DNA of 36,188 nt from Ignavibacteria bacterium. GTDB taxonomy: Bacteria > Bacteroidota > Ignavibacteria > Ignavibacteriales > Ignavibacteriaceae. Location of the stretch: assembly GCA_021286645.1 (NCBI GenBank), contig JAJTBZ010000063.1:1-36188 (forward strand). The letters run 5' to 3'. Under the pieces are notes generated by a model. It was not told where the DNA came from. It was given only the letters and a program-made list of their open reading frames with translations, and searched no databases. The position numbers and the translations under genes are program-made. Positions 6,738 through 12,755 of this stretch are shown here, in pieces (positions within the stretch are counted from its first letter, which is position 1; each line of letters starts with the position of its first letter).

Positions 6738-8132
6738 TTATCCTGCTATAGCATACGTCTTTTCAAAAAATTCTTTATGGATTGCCTTCACTGCTCTAGC
6801 CGACTGGCCTCCTTCCACGATCGAATAGAATGAGTTTTCCATTACTCCCGAAGAAAGCAGTTCGACATTAATCCCTGCTTTTGTTAAAGCTTTCAATATC
6901 CGGGCGTAAATTCCGTCTTCGGTCAGTAATCCATGACCAACGACAGCGATAAGGGCAATTTCTTTTTGAATCCGGATGGTACCAATACCCATACCACATA
7001 CATTTTTTATCATATTAATAATTCCGTCAACATCATTATTATAAACGATAACTGTTATGGCGGTGCGTGAGGCGTTCAGCGCAATATATTCATAACCTTC
7101 CAACGCGAATGCGGTAGAAATTAAGCCCAGAATTTCCTGATTGTTGGATGAAAATGTATGTAAACGTAGTAAGGATATATCATTTGTATATGTTACACTC
7201 TTAACTACCTCATTATGTATCCTTTTTTCTGCTGTAACCAATGTACCCGGCTTTTCTGAATCATAAATATTTCGAATGATAACTATAGTTTTTGTGCCAA
7301 TAACGGGTTCAATAGTCGCGGGATGGAGTATTTTAGCACCGTAATGAGCCAACTCAGTAGTTTCTTCGTACGAAATTGAATCAATTAACTGTGGATTGTC
7401 AACCACTTCCGGATCGGCTGTCAGAAAACCATCTACTTCCTTCCATATTTCGAGTATAGCTGCATTAGTACATCGGGCTAATATTGCCGCGCTATAATCC
7501 GTTCCATTCCTTCCGAAAGTTGTAATCTGCCCTTCAGGAGTAACCGCAAAATATCCGGTAATAACAGGCACTCGCCCCAAATCCTGCTGTTCCTTACTAA
7601 ATCGGGATAGAGATCTCCTACATTCTGCCTCGGAAAATTTGGCATTCGGACGCACATCCTTTGCTATGATACCTATCTTATCCGCATCATAAGCTGCCGC
7701 ATTGATTCCATTTATCCTTAACAAGCCGGCAATTAATCGGGCTGAAAGTCGTTCACCATAACTTAAAATTTCAGCCCGCTTTGTCTCCGTTAACTCCTTC
7801 ACAAGGGTTAGTTCAAAAACCTTCATCTTTAGGATATCGCAAGTATCTTCAATCTCGGTAATGATATCTGCTATTCCAGGGTTTTGGAAATAATTTAAGC
7901 ACTGAGAAACATGCAATGCACGAATCGATTCAATAATCCCTTCGACTCTGTTCGAATCAGTTCGGGAATTTATAATTGTAATCAGCGAATTTGTTACCCC
8001 GTAAAGCGCTGAAACTACAACAATAGGGTGATATTCCTTCTCTGCTGTGATAATATCCAGCACCTTTTCTATGCTGCGCGAATTCTTCAGGCACCCGCCG
8101 CCAAACTTTACTATTTTACACTCGGCTTCCAT
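6738..8132 (-). CDS. lysC: Aspartate kinase (monofunctional, with ACT domains)
   Basis: This 464-residue enzyme phosphorylates aspartate, the first step toward lysine, threonine and methionine. The kinase domain spans about residues 1-300, with KFGGGCL at the N-terminus and FGRNGTDYSAA near 210. Two ACT regions follow (about 310-460), which in this family bind feedback inhibitors. The usual nucleotide-binding motif is KFGGTS; here T and S are replaced by G and C, which is unusual, although the rest is well conserved. It is the last gene of the metY-metX-hom operon and starts three bases after the end of hom, so translation is probably coupled. Fusion to hom, as in ThrA, is absent. The operon leader suggests control by SAM, in addition to any allosteric control by amino acids. 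Confidence 0.9.
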   Translation of the reverse strand: MEAECKIVKFGGGCLKNSRSIEKVLDIITAEKEYHPIVVVSALYGVTNSLITIINSRTDSNRVEGIIESIRALHVSQCLNYFQNPGIADIITEIEDTCDILKMKVFELTLVKELTETKRAEILSYGERLSARLIAGLLRINGINAAAYDADKIGIIAKDVRPNAKFSEAECRRSLSRFSKEQQDLGRVPVITGYFAVTPEGQITTFGRNGTDYSAAILARCTNAAILEIWKEVDGFLTADPEVVDNPQLIDSISYEETTELAHYGAKILHPATIEPVIGTKTIVIIRNIYDSEKPGTLVTAEKRIHNEVVKSVTYTNDISLLRLHTFSSNNQEILGLISTAFALEGYEYIALNASRTAITVIVYNNDVDGIINMIKNVCGMGIGTIRIQKEIALIAVVGHGLLTEDGIYARILKALTKAGINVELLSSGVMENSFYSIVEGGQSARAVKAIHKEFFEKTYAIAG

Positions 8133-8135
8133 CTC

Positions 8136-9314
8136 TTAATCCTCGTCAAAAAGTGCTATGAAACTCTTATCATCTGAATCAACGGGCCGCGCGAGCAGTT
8201 CTTTCAGAGCAATTGTTCCAATATAAATATCTGCATCTTCGAGGCTAAGAGCATGATGTATATCGACCCAGGGCATACCGGATAATACCGAATCTTTGGG
8301 TATACGTGCGTATACCCTGATATGCGCATCATTATCTAATGCAGTACTATCATTGAGTTTATGATATTTATACCGATAACCCTTCGTTATACTTTCTATA
8401 TCTGAAGCTACAACGGTGGCAGTAGGAATGCTACCCGCCCCTTTCCCTGTATAGCATTGAATCCCGTAGTTTTCAGAATCCACAACTACAGCATTATATT
8501 CATTTTCTATCCCGTAGAGCTGATGTGAGGCCTTAATATACGAGGGCATTACAAATGCCTGAATAGTTCCAGCATGTTTAACTGCTTTAGCAATAAGTTT
8601 AATTTTCATGTTATGACCACGCGCTACCTGGATATCCGCATCGGTAAGATTTTGAATACCTGCATTATAAATATTTTCCGGCTTTTCGATAATCCCGAAA
8701 GCATGCGCCAGTAATATGACAAGTTTATTCTTTGAATCATAACCGGCTAAATCCAGTAAAGGGTTGCTTTCTACAAAACCGAGCCTGGTTGCTTCTGCCA
8801 ATGCTTCTTTATATGAAAGCCCTTGCCGAAATATCTGACTTAAAATAAAATTTGTTGTGCCATTGCATATCATCTCGAGTGAGTTAATCTGCACATGTTG
8901 ATAGAATTCCTCCAGCACCCTGATAATAGGAATACAGCCGCACACAGCACCCTCATAGCACAATTTTCCGCCAAATTGTTGTTGCAGAGAAATTAAAGCC
9001 GAAAGATTTTCAGCAATCATTTTTTTATTTGCAGTCACCAGCTTCTTGCCGTTTCTCAGAATTTGTTTAGCAATTTGGCTGCTGTCCAGTGCATTATCAA
9101 TTAACTCTACAATGACATCAAGTTTGCCATTAGCACCCAATATTTCGTTGTAGGATTGAGTAAAACCTGTGTTATGTTTCTCCACGGTTGACAATAAATC
9201 ACCCCTTACATCACACAGTTTTTCGAAACGATAAGCCCCCCCATATTCATTATTAACTATCGAATATAACCCCTTGCCTACGGTACCTAAACCGATTAAA
9301 CCTAAATTAACCAT
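8136..9314 (-). CDS. hom: Homoserine dehydrogenase
   Basis: This 392-residue oxidoreductase reduces aspartate semialdehyde to homoserine, the branch point to methionine and threonine. An N-terminal nucleotide-binding fold shows GLIGLGTVGKG at residues 5-15 and VTANKK near 95. The catalytic part includes NGTTNFILSQI near 150, where homoserine dehydrogenases bind substrate, and GAGSIPTATVVASDI near 290. The C-terminal 75 residues (VYARIP and the part after it) may be a reduced regulatory domain; the length lies between short forms and forms with a full ACT domain. The gene lies nine bases after metX and three bases before aspartokinase in one operon, so the supply of homoserine is tied to methionine synthesis. 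Confidence 0.93.
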   Translation of the reverse strand: MVNLGLIGLGTVGKGLYSIVNNEYGGAYRFEKLCDVRGDLLSTVEKHNTGFTQSYNEILGANGKLDVIVELIDNALDSSQIAKQILRNGKKLVTANKKMIAENLSALISLQQQFGGKLCYEGAVCGCIPIIRVLEEFYQHVQINSLEMICNGTTNFILSQIFRQGLSYKEALAEATRLGFVESNPLLDLAGYDSKNKLVILLAHAFGIIEKPENIYNAGIQNLTDADIQVARGHNMKIKLIAKAVKHAGTIQAFVMPSYIKASHQLYGIENEYNAVVVDSENYGIQCYTGKGAGSIPTATVVASDIESITKGYRYKYHKLNDSTALDNDAHIRVYARIPKDSVLSGMPWVDIHHALSLEDADIYIGTIALKELLARPVDSDDKSFIALFDED

Positions 9315-9323
9315 ACTATCTTA

Positions 9324-10310
9324 TTATGAAATAAATTTACTAATTACATTACTTAATACTTTGTACTCAATCAAAAAACCATCATGCCCAAAGCGTGAAT
9401 TAATGATTTCTAATTGGGCACCGGGAATATTTTCCTGAATAAACTGTTGCTCGGATACCGGGAATAAGCCATCCGAACTAATACCAATGACTAAGGTCTT
9501 CGCGGTAATTTCTTTGAGAGCAGTAGCTGCGTCTACCCTGCCCCTGCCTACATTATGGGAATCCATAGCCTTGCTGAGCAGGTAATAACTATGCTTATCA
9601 AATCTTTTACTCAATTTACTACCCTGGTATTGTTGGTAGGTTGATGCGCGAAAATCATCAAGCTTTTCATTTTCATCCGTCTGTGTTTCTACATAGGAGT
9701 CATAACTTCGGTATGAAAGCATTGCTATAGCCCTGGCGGCTTCAAGCCCAAGTTCATTACCTTTCAAGGCTAGTCGTTGCGCCTCATTAAAAGCTATTCC
9801 CCATGCCGAGTGACGTGCATTGGTTGCTATTGGTATGAGGAATTCAAAAACTTCCTGACATTTAATTGCCCATTCCAAAGCAATCTGTCCGCCGGTTGAC
9901 CCTCCTATTGCCACCTTAATCTTCATAATACCGAGTGATACCCGTAATTCATCGAGCGCGTTGGCCATATCACGAATGGTAAATAAGGGAAAACTCTCAC
10001 CATACGCGGTTCCCGTTACCGGGTTAACCGATAACGGTCCGCTGCTCCCGTAGCAAGAACCAAGGTTATTAGCACAAATGATACAATATTTCTCCGGATC
10101 AAAAAGCTTTTCCGGCCCGGTTAGCCCTTCCCACCATTCAGTTGGATCCGAATTAGCTGTAAGAGCATGAATGATCCACACAACATTTGATTTATCTTCA
10201 TTCAGTGAGCCATATATAGTGTATTGCAGCTCAAGCCGGGGTAACACACCTCCACGTTCCAATTGAAATGGAACGCTACTGATAAAACGGTCTTTATTTA
10301 CTGGTGTCAA
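9324..10310 (-). CDS. metX: Homoserine O-acetyltransferase (MetX family)
   Basis: This 328-residue alpha/beta-hydrolase-fold acyltransferase activates homoserine, normally with acetyl-CoA, for direct sulfhydrylation by MetY. The nucleophile elbow is GGSTGGQIALEW, with S138; the canonical form has M in place of T. Other family segments are NNLGSCYGSSGP at 81-92, DSHNVGRG near 235, an acid in GISSDGLFPVSEQQ and a histidine in FGHDGFLIEYK at the C-terminus, which complete the triad. Whether it uses acetyl- or succinyl-CoA cannot be told reliably from the sequence; the neighbouring MetY favours acetyl. It stands 52 bases after metY and nine bases before hom. The lid region is normal and no truncation is visible. 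Confidence 0.93.
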   Translation of the reverse strand: MTPVNKDRFISSVPFQLERGGVLPRLELQYTIYGSLNEDKSNVVWIIHALTANSDPTEWWEGLTGPEKLFDPEKYCIICANNLGSCYGSSGPLSVNPVTGTAYGESFPLFTIRDMANALDELRVSLGIMKIKVAIGGSTGGQIALEWAIKCQEVFEFLIPIATNARHSAWGIAFNEAQRLALKGNELGLEAARAIAMLSYRSYDSYVETQTDENEKLDDFRASTYQQYQGSKLSKRFDKHSYYLLSKAMDSHNVGRGRVDAATALKEITAKTLVIGISSDGLFPVSEQQFIQENIPGAQLEIINSRFGHDGFLIEYKVLSNVISKFIS

Positions 10311-10362: not shown

Positions 10363-11697
<1,335 letters not shown>

Positions 11698-11728: not shown

Positions 11729-11775
11729 AAAAAAAATCCGTTTCGACTACTGCTAAAAAAGTAGCCCAAACGGGT
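11729..11775 (-). terminator. Intrinsic terminator after the SAM-II aptamer
   Basis: On the minus strand CCGTTTGGGCTAC pairs with GTAGTCGAAACGG (11 of 13 pairs), with a T-rich loop, and is followed by eight T. It lies directly after the SAM-II element and about 55 bases before the metY start, so it is the likely output of that element. Confidence 0.8.
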
Positions 11776-11825
11776 TTACCTTTTTAGCTTTTTTTACGTG
11801 GTGCAATATGGATCAAATCCCACGG
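11776..11825 (-). ncRNA. SAM-II riboswitch aptamer
   Basis: The minus strand has the SAM-II layout. A first stem is formed by CGTGG and CCACG; its loop holds GATTTGATCC and ATATTGCA; a 3' tail of A-rich linker then carries GCTAAAAAGG. In the known SAM-II structure the loop and tail form a pseudoknot around SAM using GC and CC in the loop and GC and GG in the tail; all four are present here in the right order. Recalled against the well-studied metX SAM-II RNA, the loop ATATTGCA and the tail GCTAAAAAGG agree almost exactly. It sits upstream of metY, as expected. Confidence 0.88.
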
Positions 11826-11827
11826 AT

Positions 11828-11874
11828 AAAACGAAAAAACCGCACTTGTCAGTTCGGGGGTCTGAACAATGCGG
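11828..11874 (-). terminator. Intrinsic terminator after the first SAM element
   Basis: On the minus strand CCGCATTGTTCAG pairs with CTGACAAGTGCGG (10 Watson-Crick pairs, one wobble, two mismatches), followed by TTTTTTCGTTTT. It separates the upstream SAM-I-like core from the SAM-II aptamer, so transcripts can be stopped before SAM-II is made. Confidence 0.82.
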
Positions 11875-11882
11875 CTGCATTT

Positions 11883-11974
11883 CCAAGTTTTTTTCAGATC
11901 CCTGATCTGCGTATCTTTTTAGCACCGTGGCCTTGGCCGCCCGGTTGCTGTTTTTCTCAAAACTCTTGATACAA
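11883..11974 (-). ncRNA. Reduced SAM-I-type riboswitch (upstream element)
   Basis: The minus strand shows three SAM-I hallmarks in order: ATCAAGAG, CAGCAACCGG and CGGTGCTAA. The P1 stem can form from GTATC (11968-11972) and GATAC (11911-11915), leaving AAGAG as the joining strand as in standard SAM-I. P2 is reduced to a short hairpin (GTTTT, loop GAG, AAAAC), so the kink-turn and loop that normally form the pseudoknot are missing. P3 is GC, an AA/T internal loop, CCG, then GGC with a CAAG loop. P4 is absent from the core; instead CAGATC-AGG-GATCTG forms a hairpin just after P1. The parts known to contact SAM (J1/2, P3 internal loop, J3/4) are kept. I infer SAM binding from the motifs, position upstream of metY and the terminator that follows. 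It could also be a decayed or altered-specificity relative. Confidence 0.7.
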
Positions 11975-11990
11975 TTTTTATTTATGTTTC

Positions 11991-12020
11991 AATATAAGCA
12001 ATTCCACCATTTGAAGTCAA
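11991..12020 (-). promoter_or_regulatory. Promoter of the metY operon
   Basis: On the minus strand TTGACT (12015-12020), an 18-base spacer and TATATT (11991-11996) form a good sigma-70-like promoter. Transcription would start about 15 bases before the first riboswitch element. The downstream box, TATATTG, also resembles the Bacteroidota TAnnTTTG box with one base missing. Confidence 0.6.
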
Positions 12021-12128: not shown

Positions 12129-12755
12129 ATGGAATTCAAGCAAGCTGTTGAACTACGAGCATCGGTACGTACTTTTACCGATAGCCCAATCCCTCAGGAA
12201 GATATTCGCGAAATCCTCCGCCTCGCCACATGCGCTCCATGCATTGGTGGATCAGAATTCTGGAAATACCTTGTAATTACTGATAAAGCATTGCTTTCAC
12301 AAATTGCCGGTATTGTAAGGGAAAAATATAATTCCCTCATTCCTCAGGATGGGAACCCTGTGCATGCTAATATAAAAGTGGCGGTGGAAAAATTTTCTTC
12401 GGTAATAGCCTCCGCTCCGGCTGTAATTGCTGTTCTTACTGAGCCATACGAAGCTTTAATCGATAATGTTTTAGCTGCAAATGGTTTATCACATAATGAC
12501 ATGAACAGTCTTCGTAATCATCCCGATATTCAGACTGTTGGAGCGGTGGTGCAAACCCTTCTGCTTAGTGCCGTAAATGCCGGTTACACTGGCTGTTGGC
12601 TCTCGGGTCCAATGATTGCAAAAAATGAAATCAGCTCAATATTGGCTATACAGGAGCCTTTTTCACTTTCGGCTTTCGTGGCAATTGGCAACCCCGGCGC
12701 ACCGGTTGCTCCGCGAGTAAAAAAAGATGTTGACGAAATGATTGAATGGAGATAA
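12129..12755 (+). CDS. Nitroreductase family protein
   Basis: This 208-residue protein has the fold and motifs of FMN-dependent nitroreductases. The N-terminal ELRASVRTFTDSPIPQEDI segment includes the RxSxRxF motif that binds the FMN phosphate, followed by ILRLATCAPCIGGSEFWKYLVI. The C-terminal part contains VVQTLLLSAVNAGYTGCWLSGP and FVAIGNPGAPVAPRVKKDVDEMI, where FMN and the dimer partner meet. Such enzymes reduce nitro compounds, quinones or flavins with NAD(P)H, or take part in redox cofactor processing; the substrate cannot be told. The unusual CAPC pair near residues 36-39 could be redox-active. It is transcribed divergently from the metY operon and ends at a strong hairpin, so it is probably a single-gene unit. 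Confidence 0.9.
   Translation: MEFKQAVELRASVRTFTDSPIPQEDIREILRLATCAPCIGGSEFWKYLVITDKALLSQIAGIVREKYNSLIPQDGNPVHANIKVAVEKFSSVIASAPAVIAVLTEPYEALIDNVLAANGLSHNDMNSLRNHPDIQTVGAVVQTLLLSAVNAGYTGCWLSGPMIAKNEISSILAIQEPFSLSAFVAIGNPGAPVAPRVKKDVDEMIEWR

Follow-up and report, generated by a model that had tools for sequence, protein, structure and literature searches.

The metY leader of an Ignavibacteria bacterium (GenBank assembly GCA_021286645.1, contig JAJTBZ010000063.1) raises the question of why two RNA sensors for one molecule, S-adenosylmethionine (SAM), are kept in front of one gene. The window, i.e., the whole stretch of DNA that was analyzed, comprises 36,188 nucleotides. On its minus strand, to which all positions below refer unless stated otherwise, a promoter-like site, a SAM-I/IV aptamer, terminator 1, a SAM-II aptamer and terminator 2 follow each other in this order within about 300 nt 5′ of metY. 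The initial annotation, made from the sequence alone, had named the two aptamers and the two terminators in this order, and all four were recovered by Rfam model searches and folding. Its view, in which a separate terminator follows each of two serial SAM aptamers of unrelated class, is borne out by the anatomy and by comparison with relatives, giving two predicted off-switches that would multiply repression.

The search of related genomes for the same order, which had been proposed along with it, yielded five further genomes. In total, six genomes of the class, belonging to two families, have a SAM-I/IV aptamer followed by SAM-II ahead of metY: G000 (the genome of the window), G057, G053 and G009 in the window's family, and G221 and G298 in a second one. 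These are referred to as the tandem genomes.

Aptamers, promoter and operon

The upstream aptamer (11879..11977) was matched by the Rfam model RF01725 with 58.8 bits at a cut-off of 41.1, the alignment spanning positions 1-99 of 99, and this is the sole Rfam match above a cut-off within the window. The features of SAM-I/IV membership are present, namely P1, an undivided P2, P3 with the CAACC/GGUG core and a hairpin 3′ of P1, and the AAGAG, CAACC and GGUG motifs agree with the RF01725 consensus. The SAM-I-type core that had been described at 11911-11972 does run from P1 to P1, but the class is SAM-I/IV, and P5 and the pseudoknot strand 3′ of P1 also belong to the aptamer. A plain SAM-I element was rejected, since of the clan models it is RF01725 whose match was retained in the window, and RF00162 has no match in the genome of the window.

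For the upstream element, the initial annotation had asked for covariance in relatives. Nine sequences were compared using helices chosen by eye, six from the tandem genomes and three located 5′ of metK, and compensatory changes were found in P1, P5 and the P3-loop pseudoknot. P1 (11968-11972/11911-11915) and the hairpin P5 3′ of P1 (11904-11909/11895-11900) show standard pairs with compensatory changes in nine of nine sequences. The P3-loop pseudoknot (CCAAG/CUUGG, 11932-11936/11883-11887, span 11883..11936) has 4-7 standard pairs in all nine, formed by strands as different as CCAAG/CUUGG, CGGG/CCCG, GAGAC/GUCUC and GCCGGA/UCUGGC. It is placed as PK-2 of SAM-IV, which is described as a pairing of the P3 loop with a strand 3′ of P5 (PMC6890682).

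The energy of this pseudoknot was equalled by 44-243 of 1000 single-sequence shuffles in the six tandem sequences, which is weak support, and a cross-genome pairing matrix revealed a clear preference for the own partner in G053 only. As single-sequence shuffles are weak, the case for the pseudoknot is made by the co-variation. When the leader was folded as far as terminator 1 with nested pairs only, G053 and G221 did not show P1. The upstream element is assigned to SAM-I/IV (RF01725), a group of variants reported in 2010 (PMC2864571); it carries a SAM-IV-like P5 and P3-loop pseudoknot and, judged by sequence, is a predicted SAM sensor.

The downstream aptamer was matched by RF01726 (11774..11829, 31.9 bits at a cut-off of 44, E 3.4e-4) and by RF00521 (11763-11833, 30.8 bits at a cut-off of 36, E 4.2e-5), i.e., under both curated Rfam cut-offs; SAM-II copies elsewhere in the family score up to 45.8 bits. 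The hallmarks of SAM-II are present in the window copy: a P1 stem (CGUGG/CCACG, 11820-11824/11797-11801), the UUUG loop, UUGC and the GCUAAA 3′ core, which is contained in GCUAAAAAGG (11779-11788).

For the SAM-II alignment no base pairs were returned by RNAalifold, and the models R1 and R2 are therefore sequence-only. R2 is a leave-out model for which 20 SAM-II copies were taken from relatives, all of them outside SAM-I/IV tandems. It matched the window copy with 31.6 bits (E 5.4e-9) as the single match within the window up to E = 10, and across the window and the five other tandem loci (50,560 bases) it found each of the six expected copies and no other site up to E = 10. Twelve of the 14 positions that are invariant in the 20 other copies are retained in the window, and 12-14 in the six tandem copies; the two misses of the window are both in the 5′ strand of P1, at a place where the alignment seems to be off by one position. 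In the six tandem copies P2b, the pairing of loop 1 with the 3′ tail, consists of CC/GG and at most one further pair (two pairs in total in the window), and the second pseudoknot helix in relatives' copies is GCC/GGC, GAC/GUC or AAC/GUU. The earlier SAM-II call is upheld by the leave-out model and the Rfam E-values, though the bit scores remain under Rfam's cut-offs. The downstream element is thus filed as SAM-II, and as a predicted SAM sensor, through homology to the copies of relatives and not by Rfam cut-off.

A promoter of the form TTGACT-18-TATATT is predicted by pattern match at 11991..12020 and ends 20 nt 5′ of the aptamer motif AUCAAGAG. Taken alone the pattern is near chance, with three found in the region versus 1.7 expected. 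TATATT together with a -35 element is located 20-24 nt 5′ of AUCAAGAG in four of the five tandem leaders scored (G000, G057, G053 and G009, with G298 left out), and in the fifth, G221, no promoter resembling that of the first family was found. Upstream of the leader, a nitroreductase-family gene (PF00881) is encoded on the plus strand at 12129-12755 and is directed away from the leader, so that the upstream region is common to both.

The first gene 3′ of the leader is metY (10363..11673), encoding an O-acetylhomoserine sulfhydrylase (PF01053; TIGR01326 with 654.8 bits at a cut-off of 495.1). It is followed on the same strand by a metX-like homoserine O-acyltransferase gene (9324..10310), whose best NCBIfam match, TIGR01392, is at 317.5 bits below the cut-off of 500, by hom for homoserine dehydrogenase (8136..9314; PF00742 and NF004976 over cut-off) and by a lysC-like aspartate kinase gene (6738..8132; TIGR00657 over cut-off). 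The gaps between the four ORFs are 52, 9 and 3 nt, and according to the family matches their products serve the synthesis of methionine precursors.

Mutually exclusive pairings and the proposed mode of control

Both terminators are of the intrinsic type. Terminator 1 with its U tract extends over 11834..11876 (stem 11839-11876, U tract to 11834) and has a folding energy of -15.6 kcal/mol (z -2.69). Terminator 2 extends over 11729..11773 (stem 11738-11773, U tract to 11729), with -18.9 kcal/mol when the SAM-II core is kept out and a z of -3.19 for the 71-nt piece. In the five tandem leaders folded, the stem and U run of terminator 1 are placed alike and terminator 2 is present; both terminators are visible in G298 too. 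A simple terminator scan flagged neither of them on the minus strand, which is attributed to their long loops and interrupted stems.

Antiterminator 1 is predicted at 11850..11909, where the P5 arm 11893-11902 pairs with 11857-11866 and an inner AAUGC/GCAUU helix is formed (11877-11881/11868-11872). In general, the partner of the P5 3′ arm (of both arms in G053) is the 5′ arm of terminator 1 together with its loop. When the RNA ended ahead of the terminator 3′ arm, this pairing was the minimum-energy fold of four out of five tandem genomes; in G221 P5 stays formed, and the 5′ half of P5 had to be blocked before antiterminator 1 appeared. Using segments chosen by eye, as for the folds, the duplex energy was equalled per 1000 shuffles by 3 in G057, 0 in G053, 3 in G000, 40 in G009, 78 in G298 and 116 in G221. 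In the cross-genome matrix the own pairing was the best of its row in four of six genomes, the exceptions being G009 and G221. As a folding model, antiterminator 1 appears well supported in the window's family and weakly supported in the second family (G221, G298).

Antiterminator 2, formed by GCUAAAAAGGUA with UACUUUUUUAGC, is predicted at 11752..11788 in RNA cut before the 3′ arm of terminator 2. It is found in all six tandem genomes, where 8-10 of the 10 core positions are paired by differing sequences, and it has bases in common with terminator 2, which makes the two structures mutually exclusive. Its energy was equalled by 0, 0, 1, 1, 12 and 145 of 1000 dinucleotide shuffles, the 145 belonging to G057. 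The count of paired core positions is a weaker sign, equalled by 56-273 of 1000 shuffles with no genome below 56.

The leader is likely to be a double transcription attenuator, in which both units act as transcriptional off-switches in series. RNA polymerase would start about 300 nt 5′ of metY, and the SAM-I/IV aptamer would be made first. Without SAM, the P5 3′ arm would pair with both the 5′ arm of terminator 1 and its loop, forming antiterminator 1, and the polymerase would pass. With SAM, P1, P5 and the P3-loop pseudoknot would be held, terminator 1 would fold and transcription would stop. A polymerase that has passed terminator 1 would make the SAM-II aptamer, whose 3′ core GCUAAAAAGG would pair downstream as antiterminator 2 in the absence of SAM; in its presence the core would be locked in the SAM-II pseudoknot and terminator 2 would fold. 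The metY-metX-hom-lysC transcript, presumed to be a single one, would be made only when both checks have been passed, so that repression would multiply and leakage would fall.

The size of this gain was considered by arithmetic only, for ideal independent switches. The 90-to-10% span is 81-fold for one switch and for two it is 40-fold at equal affinity or 75-fold if the affinities differ 100-fold, while a leak of 0.05 becomes 0.0025 with two switches of 95% efficiency each. A low leak is therefore a firmer expected gain than sharpness.

It is improbable that unit 1 stops transcription while the SAM-II unit acts mainly, or also, on the translation of metY, as in SAM-II/SAM-V tandems. The survey of PMC9481103 tables SAM-I/IV-SAM-II pairs as such a bi-mechanism, though its text on mixed SAM-II and SAM-I/IV pairs suggests that they might be exclusively pseudo-cooperative. 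In G053 (L003 1737-1746, 1801-1810) the loop of terminator 2 matches the metY Shine-Dalgarno stretch as an exact complement over 10 nt, a length equalled in 1 of 1000 shuffles; the window has a complement of 8 nt directly 3′ of the U tract (56 of 1000). Against a role in translation, the longest such complement in the other four tandem genomes is 5-6 nt and no better than chance (644-997 of 1000 shuffles), and the SAM-II core is followed by a terminator hairpin, a U tract and an excluding antiterminator. Two terminators with two excluding antiterminators match, in anatomy only, the layout of a pseudo-cooperative tandem, in which two complete switches for the same ligand have separate expression platforms that act at one level, and this anatomy favours two transcriptional units. 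The G053 copy could also affect translation.

Very unlikely is a decaying SAM-II remnant with a constitutive or inactive terminator, which would leave the SAM-I/IV unit as the only one that still senses SAM. Wherever Rfam reported a SAM-II copy in a tandem locus, its score is indeed under the cut-offs, and P2b is short in the tandem copies, but this is opposed by the 12-14 invariant positions retained, by an antiterminator formed from differing sequences in six genomes and by the presence of the pair in two families. That the SAM-I clan element has changed its ligand, resulting in a two-input gate, is hardly credible, because the spermidine variants of SAM-I, by which such a change is known in the clan, are described with alterations in J1/2 and the P3 internal loop (PMC10853860), whereas AAGAG, CAACC and GGUG here follow the RF01725 consensus and the gene downstream is metY.

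For the double attenuator, the mixing of two unrelated SAM folds might, as a tentative and rather doubtful suggestion, be selected for and not incidental. Unlike identical copies, the two folds would not misfold with each other or recombine, and differing affinities and folding times would allow SAM to be checked at two times of transcription and across two ranges of its concentration, the leak of the whole methionine operon being near zero.

Distribution in relatives and history of metY

In the window's family RF01725 matches four of 80 genomes, each with this order ahead of metY. In a class-wide draw it matched 17 of 391 genomes, including G221 of another family as the fifth tandem. The SAM-II model matched 53 genomes of the same draw of 391 and added the sixth tandem, G298, whose SAM-I/IV aptamer is absent from the report of the RF01725 scan; both class-wide scans used strict filters, by which weak copies can be missed. 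No SAM-II aptamer adjoins the other SAM-I/IV loci fetched in the class, three of which precede metK (L107 by family search, L108 and L109 by eye). Among 80 named metY loci, two have SAM-II before metY (L006 and L082), and these are copies of the G053 and G221 loci. A weak SAM-II match in L042 (E 0.021) is located on the opposite strand.

Outside the class, 26 SAM-I/IV loci were fetched (L147-L172) and none was found with SAM-II near it, using a SAM-II model that was trained on this class and may miss the copies of other lineages; L152 has one SAM-II match about 1.1 kb from its SAM-I/IV aptamer. At the phylum level RF01725 gave five further hits, one inside L150 and four outside the 26-locus count. 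Chance or artefact as the source of the pair was ruled out by the same order in six separate genomes and by the lack of any extra leave-out match in 50,560 bases up to E = 10.

Further arrangements were observed in these searches. In L110, L111, L148, L149, L150 and L152 a SAM-I/IV aptamer lies before ORFs, and the P1 5′ strand and core have an exact complement of 8-9 nt located 90-140 nt downstream; such a complement occurs in 6 of the 29 loci where the core was located and is a possible alternative pairing. Three SAM-II-like units in a row are present in L180, L183, L184 and L188 (G283, G327, G340 and G241). The first two abut with a period of about 51 nt, leaving no room for a terminator, and may share one expression platform, and the third follows about 140-190 nt on. 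In L198 and L200 (G140 and G111) two SAM-II-like sites are about 865 nt apart on one strand.

A close metY is present in 23 of the 80 genomes of the window's family. The pair is present in four of these, contig ends interrupt G008 and G024, and of the remaining 17 genomes 16 have, by coordinates, a SAM-I switch just 5′ of metY; for G069 no SAM-I switch was reported upstream of the gene. SAM control of metY is thus the rule in the family. A metY tree of 103 rows unites the genes of the six tandem genomes and of G008 in one clade (SH-aLRT 96) among other Bacteroidota genes and apart from the 17 others. The tree was calculated by a quick method with SH-aLRT only and a midpoint root, its long branches include G000, and G024 (a fragment) and L006 (the copy of G053) were left out. 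For L013 and L018, the nearest tree rows of other lineages, no riboswitch match was found at the gathering threshold.

The three tandem genomes with a recovered metX have a product 58-63% identical to that of the window, as against 39-40% in the two non-tandem loci of the family that were compared. Leader, metY and metX probably spread together, once. Within one bacterial family, metY is found under either a single SAM-I switch or a SAM-I/IV-SAM-II pair, i.e., its control has undergone turnover.

Comparison with known tandem systems

To the initial annotation the pair had seemed undescribed. This has to be corrected, and an undescribed arrangement was ruled out, as the tandem counts of a 2022 survey list both orders, SAM-I/IV then SAM-II with n = 2 and SAM-II then SAM-I/IV with n = 7 (PMC9481103). 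Among the open-licence papers listed by the searches, nothing further on the SAM-I/IV-SAM-II pairing was found beyond this survey. Its two cases share with the leader described here the same two classes in the same order within one leader. The survey text gives counts only, which are extended here by a set of six genomes, by excluding antiterminators and by a gene tree.

The SAM-II/SAM-V tandem of marine bacteria likewise has two SAM classes in series, the first with a terminator, but its second unit controls translation (PMC9481103), whereas the second unit here is followed by a terminator. SAM-II/SAM-II tandems occur in 10 of the 80 genomes of the window's family and also place two SAM units in series, the upstream unit being SAM-II and not SAM-I/IV. 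A hairpin with a U run was seen by eye after several of them, and the downstream SAM-II in G046, G048 and G006 has a P1 of the GUGG type like the one here. This pair precedes metK in G075 and G076 (L087 and L086; TIGR01034 over cut-off) and a gene of the cystathionine synthase/lyase type in G002 and G055 as well as, by eye, in G025 and G026. The single SAM-I switches before metY in the window's family and its sister family f2 are alike in placing a SAM-responsive class before metY, but differ in having one aptamer and in belonging to another metY clade.

The leader adds a well-supported new case to an arrangement that is known but rare. Its order is represented in the open-licence literature searched by a count of two in one survey (PMC9481103), to which six genomes, both predicted excluding antiterminators and a single gene-tree clade now add a testable model for why two different RNA sensors for one molecule are kept.
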